Assembly: GCF_002104475.1 (NCBI RefSeq)
Contig: NZ_NBOF01000005.1
Coordinates: 372,001 to 436,000, forward strand
Direction: 5' to 3'
From: Cognaticolwellia mytili
GTDB taxonomy: Bacteria; Pseudomonadota; Gammaproteobacteria; Enterobacterales; Alteromonadaceae
DNA: 64,000 nt
The translations under genes were made by a program, and so were the position numbers. The notes under the pieces were generated by a model. The model did not search any database, was not told where the DNA came from, and worked only from the letters and a program-made list of their open reading frames with translations. Of the stretch, positions 44,605 through 45,698 are shown piece by piece (within the stretch, counting starts at the first letter, position 1; each line of letters opens with the position of its first letter).

Positions 44605-45698
44605 TGAGTATTGGTAAATTATTTATTCAAGATTTTCGCAACATAGAAAGTGTTTCTATAAATTTTCATTCAGATGTTAATTTTATTATTGGTGATAACG
44701 GTAGTGGCAAAAGTAGTTTATTAGAAGCGATTTTTTATTTGGGTCACGGAAAATCTTTTCGGAGTTCAAAAGTAGATAATTTATTACAACGTGAAAAAAG
44801 TTCATTTACTGTTAGTATAAAAACAGATAAAGATTGTCAGCTTGGTGTTCGTAAAGGATTTGATGCCAGCGCAGGTAGCACTGAAATTAGAATAGACGGT
44901 GAGAAGCAAACTAAGTTCTCATCTCTGGCTAAAAATGTTGCGGTGCAGGTGATTACTCCAGAAAGCTTTAAACTTTTTTTTGGTGGTCCGAAGCAACGAC
45001 GACGTTTTATTGATTTAGGATTGTTTCACGTGAAACATTCCTTTTCAGAACACTGGAGAGAGTTCTCTAGAATATTAAAGCAACGTAATGCCTGTTTAAG
45101 AAATAAGGCTGACGCTGCAACATTAAGTTATTGGGCAGAGGTGTTTGCTGAAAGTTCTCAACAAATCGCAAACTTGAGAGCCGAGTACGTAAATGAGTTG
45201 ACTAATGAGTTAAGTTTTTGGCTAAAAATCATGTTACCGTCGGTATCTGATGATATAGTAATTCAGTACTTGCAAGGTTGGAATTCTAAGAAATCATTGA
45301 TTGATGTATTAGGTCAATATCAAGAAAAAGAATTGGCAATAGGATACAGTTTATTTGGTGCTCAAAAATTTGATGTAAGGTTTATATTAAATGGTACTTC
45401 TTTGGATAATCAATTATCCAGAGGTCAACAAAAGTTGTTTTTACTGGCATTAACTTTTGCACAAGCGAAGCTTATTGAAAGAGTTAATCGAGTAAAACCA
45501 ATTTTATTAATAGATGATGTTGGTGCTGAATTGGATAACAATTCTAGAACGCTATTGAACAATGCTATAGCGGCAATAGAATGTCAGGTTATCGTAACAG
45601 CAATAGATAAAACAGCAGTGGAACAACTCGTTCCTCAAAAAGAAAACTATAAAATGTTTCACGTGAAACATGGCAAACTATCAGTAATGAGTGAGTAG
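44604..45698 (+). CDS. recF: DNA repair protein RecF
   Basis: A 364-residue SMC-like ATPase for recombinational gap repair with RecOR. Walker A is GDNGSGKSS (residues 30-38), the signature [13 protein letters not shown] and Walker [13 protein letters not shown]. Two perfect parS palindromes lie within the gene (45022 and 45655). Both are read in the same frame and give FHVKH, so the protein carries this pentapeptide twice, once near residue 142 and once about 13 residues from the end. The gene ends 10 bp before the gyrB ATG. Confidence 0.97.
45022..45037. other. parS: parS centromere site 1 (in recF)
   Basis: TGTTTCACGTGAAACA, a perfect 16-bp palindrome identical to the bacterial parS consensus bound by ParB. 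It sits about one third into recF. Confidence 0.95.
45655..45670. other. parS: parS centromere site 2 (3' end of recF)
   Basis: A second perfect TGTTTCACGTGAAACA, 633 bp from the first and 39 bp before the gyrB start codon. Confidence 0.95.

Follow-up and report, generated by a model that had tools for sequence, protein, structure and literature searches.

Two Palindromes Within the recF Gene

The window, a stretch of 64,000 nucleotides from the Cognaticolwellia mytili genome, contained the genes dnaA-dnaN-recF-gyrB in this order, with mnmG-rsmG-parA-parB located on the other side (Table 1). Exact copies of TGTTTCACGTGAAACA, a perfect 16-base palindrome, were identified at 2 places within recF, close to the putative origin and about 3 kb from the start of dnaA. 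Both copies are read in a single frame, as LFHVKH and MFHVKH, which bears out the initial annotation that RecF carries the peptide FHVKH twice. The second copy had been placed 39 bp before gyrB; it does lie shortly before this gene, but the spacing to the ATG at position 45709 is 38 bases. The nearest named recF loci were those of Pseudocolwellia, Thalassotalea, and Colwellia, with about 60 percent identity in a list from which the window's own genus is possibly absent.

Table 1. Coordinates of the genes and predicted parS sites in the window
Feature	Coordinates	Strand	Description
parB	32366..33250	-	294 aa; predicted cognate centromere-binding protein; TIGR00180; solved ParB/Spo0J relatives
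parA	33247..34065	-	272 aa; partner ATPase; ParA-family partition ATPase models
dnaA	42109..43473	+	TIGR00362; puts the sites a few kb from an origin-side gene
dnaN	43501..44604	+	TIGR00663; upstream in the dnaA-dnaN-recF-gyrB cluster
recF	44604..45698	+	364 aa; hosts both sites; TIGR00611, E 4e-98; solved RecF relatives
parS site 1 (predicted)	45022..45037		recF codons 140-145, L-F-H-V-K-H; end of predicted helix
parS site 2 (predicted)	45655..45670		recF codons 351-356, M-F-H-V-K-H; predicted C-terminal beta strand
gyrB	45709..48153	+	NF011501/TIGR01059; starts 38 bases past site 2

Within the window, the 2 recF copies were the only matches to TGTTTCACGTGAAACA even when up to 3 mismatches were allowed. 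A scan of the whole genome (4,508,862 bases in 42 contigs), proposed together with the original observation, likewise returned nothing but these 2 sites at 0 or 1 mismatch, and the next best matches contained 2 mismatches. With up to 3 mismatches, 42 matches were obtained genome-wide versus 29 for the reversed pattern that served as control, which is near the control level. By chance, an exact 16-mer would be expected about 0.001 times in a genome of 4.5 Mb.

The palindrome is an exact match to the parS sequence TGTTYCACGTGRAACA, and the genome encodes a cognate ParA and ParB, as identified by profile models and by solved ParB/Spo0J relatives. The genes for these 2 proteins are located 11.8 to 13.3 kb from the recF sites, in agreement with the distance of 11-13 kb given previously for ParB. 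The ParB protein in the window contains the motifs GKSR and MGHARA, and thus retains R173 and G201 (Caulobacter numbering), which are conserved in ParB proteins that bind parS and altered in Noc proteins that bind NBS (PMC7383237). By these residues it is of the parS type and not of the Noc/NBS type.

A model of RecF inferred with AlphaFold2 from the RecF alignment (mean pLDDT 93.7) placed site 1 at the end of the helix formed by residues 129-143 and site 2 in the last-but-one beta strand, residues 349-355, near the C-terminus, so both sites would code for folded parts of the protein. The initial annotation had suggested that the sites constrain the RecF sequence, including a C-terminal tail. 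The constraint is borne out by the analyses below, but according to the model the end of RecF is folded and not a floppy tail.

Conservation of the Sites Across the Class

To follow the sites across species, codons were read at both positions of recF in 97 genomes of the order and in 103 genomes sampled across the class, roughly one from each family. Both sites were kept with at most 1 mismatch in all 59 recF-bearing genomes of the window's family, 58 of which contained the exact core GTTYCACGTGRAAC at both places. Among the ParB-bearing genomes in the rest of the order, 12 contained both cores, 12 contained the core at site 2 only, and 5 contained none. The corresponding numbers for the 102 ParB-bearing genomes sampled class-wide, at about one per family, were 72 with both cores, 13 with site 1 only, 8 with site 2 only, and 9 with none.

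In named loci, both sites were present in Colwellia, Thalassotalea, Pseudoalteromonas, Pseudidiomarina, Rheinheimera, Pseudomonas, and Chromohalobacter relatives, and neither site was identified in the named recF loci of Escherichia, Klebsiella, Yersinia, Xenorhabdus, Pasteurella, and Actinobacillus. It was also noted that 4 genomes that have lost site 1, G104 (L176), G159 (L150), G179 (L143), and G199 (L178), contained a further parS at most 15 bases downstream of recF, as if the site had been regained in the gap between recF and gyrB.

Selection on the DNA Sequence

Codon usage at the sites was examined in 174 ParB-bearing sequences, with a single genome kept from the window's genus and expectations calculated from the usage of each gene. 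Valine was encoded by GTG in 145 of 146 sequences at site 1 and in 154 of 158 at site 2, whereas 53.5 and 58.8 were expected. Histidine was encoded by CAC in 147 of 159 and 148 of 154 sequences (expected 73.2 and 70.9), lysine was AAA in 71 of 71, and the glutamate codons were skewed likewise. When 357 columns of recF were scored, 8 of the 9 most codon-constrained columns were parS codons.

Because the sites are located inside recF, the 16 bases also encode 5 to 6 RecF residues, and RecF is limited to the residues that parS permits. The permitted codons would be NTG (L/M/V), TTY (F), CAC (H), GTG (V), RAA (E/K), and CA/CC (H/Q/P). The observed variation mostly follows this pattern, with Leu, Met, or Val at NTG, Glu or Lys at RAA, and His, Gln, or Pro at the edge. 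The replacement of Glu by Lys is radical for a protein, yet both bases are allowed by parS.

Site 2 contained CATGTG in 20 of 20 named loci from Vibrio, Photobacterium, Enterovibrio, and Shewanella (e.g. L225, L227, L230, and L223), and site 1 was mostly gone. In these related species, the valine codon was GTG in all 20 loci versus a background of 28 percent. Since GTG is still fixed, the CATGTG form of site 2 in Vibrionaceae and Shewanella may be a weak parS that is still in use, or one that was recently lost.

Association With ParB and Losses of the Sites

In general, the sites were kept with ParB and lost without it. At the family level, the core was present in 108 of 120 ParB-bearing families but in only 1 of 8 ParB-less families (Fisher p 4e-6, a value that is only indicative because families are related by descent and not fully independent, and because of the scoring of G080, counted as ParB-less despite a divergent ParB-like match with an E-value of 1e-34, and of G076 and G084, which contained only weak matches). 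The absence of ParB was called by profile searches on draft genomes, and G199, the sole ParB-less genome that retains a core, is a draft of 300 contigs.

Both cores were absent from all 9 ParB-less genomes of the order, one of which contained a remnant with a single mismatch. In this genome, G068 (L043), site 2 differs from parS by one base, a change of CAC to CGC, and is read as MFRVEH. This remnant is likely a fossil centromere. Similar MFRVE tails were observed in the named loci of Yersinia, Xenorhabdus, and Pantoea.

ParB-bearing genomes without a core in recF mostly contained canonical parS sites elsewhere, and their RecF has lost FHVEH at one site or at both (G064, G061, G075, G086, G141, G216, and G151). 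We also noted that G061 (L345:1500-2930) contained about 9 parS or near-parS sites within an array of AT-rich tandem repeats, each 184 bases long, preceded by a gene that presumably encodes the glycyl-tRNA synthetase beta-chain. The array resembles a satellite-like centromere in a relative without recF sites.

An alternative explanation for the FHVKH repeat is that it represents a motif of the RecF protein, for contact with DNA, RecO/RecR, or the clamp, with the shared DNA sequence being a consequence of the protein sequence and codon bias. RecF proteins of ParB-less lineages, including the E. coli type, retain F-H in the first site and F-V-E-G in the second, which indicates that parS occupies stretches that RecF favours anyway. 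Residues F141, F352, V354, and G357 were invariant in a diverse alignment, and the FHVEH tail is found without a perfect parS in Vibrio and Shewanella. Some of the peptide is likewise kept without parS in Enterobacteriaceae, in the forms CFHNEP and MF[RTSAN]VE. However, a protein motif does not account for the frozen synonymous positions, for swaps between Glu and Lys, between Leu, Met, and Val, and between His, Gln, and Pro that follow the DNA consensus, or for the altered peptide where ParB or parS was lost. We therefore consider this explanation very unlikely. The frozen codons, the parS-permitted residues, and the association with ParB show that selection acts on the DNA at both sites.

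The RecF alignment supports the proposal that FHVKH tracks parS: in about 200 genomes, FHVKH or FHVEH written in parS codons follows the presence of ParB and of parS, with the qualification that the peptide is partly RecF's own. The initial annotation had held that equal conservation of the sequence in species with parS elsewhere would speak against the sites. In most lineages of this kind the peptide has changed, although Vibrio and Shewanella still encode FHVEH at site 2 in DNA that has decayed or is variant.

Variant Sites in 2 Genomes

Both recF sites in G173 (L149) consisted of GTTTCATATGAAAC, and they were the only 2 such sites in that genome. RecF here contained FHMKH or FHMKQ at both sites, and the ParB protein (L211) contained serine in place of the conserved helix-turn-helix residue Gly170 (G170S), a replacement seen in 1 of 54 ParB proteins. 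This single case possibly reflects co-evolution of ParB and parS; a search for relatives of G173 that might share the double change identified no close kin. In G100, the 2 sites represented one non-palindromic variant in opposite orientations, GTTTCACATGAAAC and its reverse complement. The replacement K171R in ParB was considered as a tracker of the CATATG and CACATG variants of parS, since it was present in 4 of 4 such genomes, but this reading was dropped because 42 of the 54 ParB proteins surveyed contained R at position 171.

Comparison With Known parS Sites

The arrangement resembles that in Pseudomonas aeruginosa, in which 2 parS sites are located in recF, the parAB genes lie near oriC, and the gene order is the same. 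The parS sites closest to oriC in P. aeruginosa are situated in recF at a distance of about 4 kb (PMC3909081), and parS1 and parS2 were named as being within this gene (PMC5521831). ParB occupies parS1-4 in vivo and spreads over more than 20 kb (PMC5098823); segregation requires one of these sites, and any of them is enough (PMC4368675). ParB binding in P. aeruginosa has been proven by ChIP-seq, in addition to mutants, and any one of 4 sites near oriC suffices. That species also has 2 extra intergenic sites, parS3 and parS4, and a parS arm of the form TTCCACGTGGAA, whereas the genome studied here contains the recF pair only, with the arm TTTCACGTGAAA. The parS1 site ends with GGAACC (PMC4368675), which would fit the FHVEP form that is common at site 1 in our alignment.

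The sites belong to the same class of 16-base palindromes as those bound by ParB/Spo0J in Bacillus subtilis. The Spo0J parS sites in the latter species are many and scattered, and to our knowledge they include no conserved pair in recF. Ten parS sites have been described in B. subtilis (PMC4368675). The ParABS system of Vibrio cholerae chromosome I, with parS1, is gammaproteobacterial like the one described here, and its 3 natural, working parS1 sites are separated from the origin by about 65 kb (PMC4091711). Unlike in our genome, the named Vibrio recF loci lack site 1, and their site 2 has changed by drift to CATGTG.

A Probable Centromere Within recF

Taken together, the sequence, its uniqueness in the genome, the genes for ParA and ParB, the conservation, the codon-level selection, and the association with ParB make it almost certain that the 2 palindromes are the chromosome's parS centromere, that is, the ParB loading sites of a ParABS system, situated within recF near the origin. 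By analogy with known systems, we infer that ParB would bind each palindrome and close into a sliding clamp, that the clamps would spread over kilobases around the sites, and that ParA would move the ParB complex such that, once replicated, the origin region is the first to separate.

The main role of the sites could instead be the control of recF-gyrB transcription by ParB, and not that of a centromere. The short distance between site 2 and gyrB is consistent with such a role, as is the finding that excess ParB lowers the mRNA levels of gyrB and its neighbours in P. aeruginosa (PMC5521831). However, native levels of ParB cause no repression of the genes beside the intragenic sites parS1 and parS2 (PMC5521831), and since the recF pair represents the only parS sites in the genome, there is no alternative candidate for the centromere. 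A mainly regulatory function is thus extremely improbable. An effect on recF and gyrB expression alongside the centromere function is possible and would, by the P. aeruginosa data, be small at the native ParB level.

Considered for this genome only, the arrangement is unremarkable because P. aeruginosa has it; it is known in kind, and the window is a further case from an Alteromonadaceae-type gammaproteobacterium. A full-text search identified no further papers that name recF as a general host of parS; outside that search is Livny et al. 2007, reportedly a survey of parS sites that might already state a class-wide position in recF. As far as checked, the new finding is the evidence, at codon level and across the class, for a centromere encoded inside recF, which shows an arrangement described earlier from one model species to be old and widespread in the class. 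It is probable that recF has served two purposes since early in the history of the Gammaproteobacteria, with the ancestral centromere of the class hard-coded in it, and that drift of the ParB target rewrites RecF at 2 distant places at once, as in the change from FHVKH to FHMKH in G173. The recF gene is a clear natural example in which a DNA signal that acts on the scale of the chromosome overwrites a protein, and the RecF residues of a lineage largely reveal whether ParABS is still in use there and with which parS variant. The gene also provides a ready test of ParB/parS co-evolution in a setting where the reading frame constrains each of the two sites.
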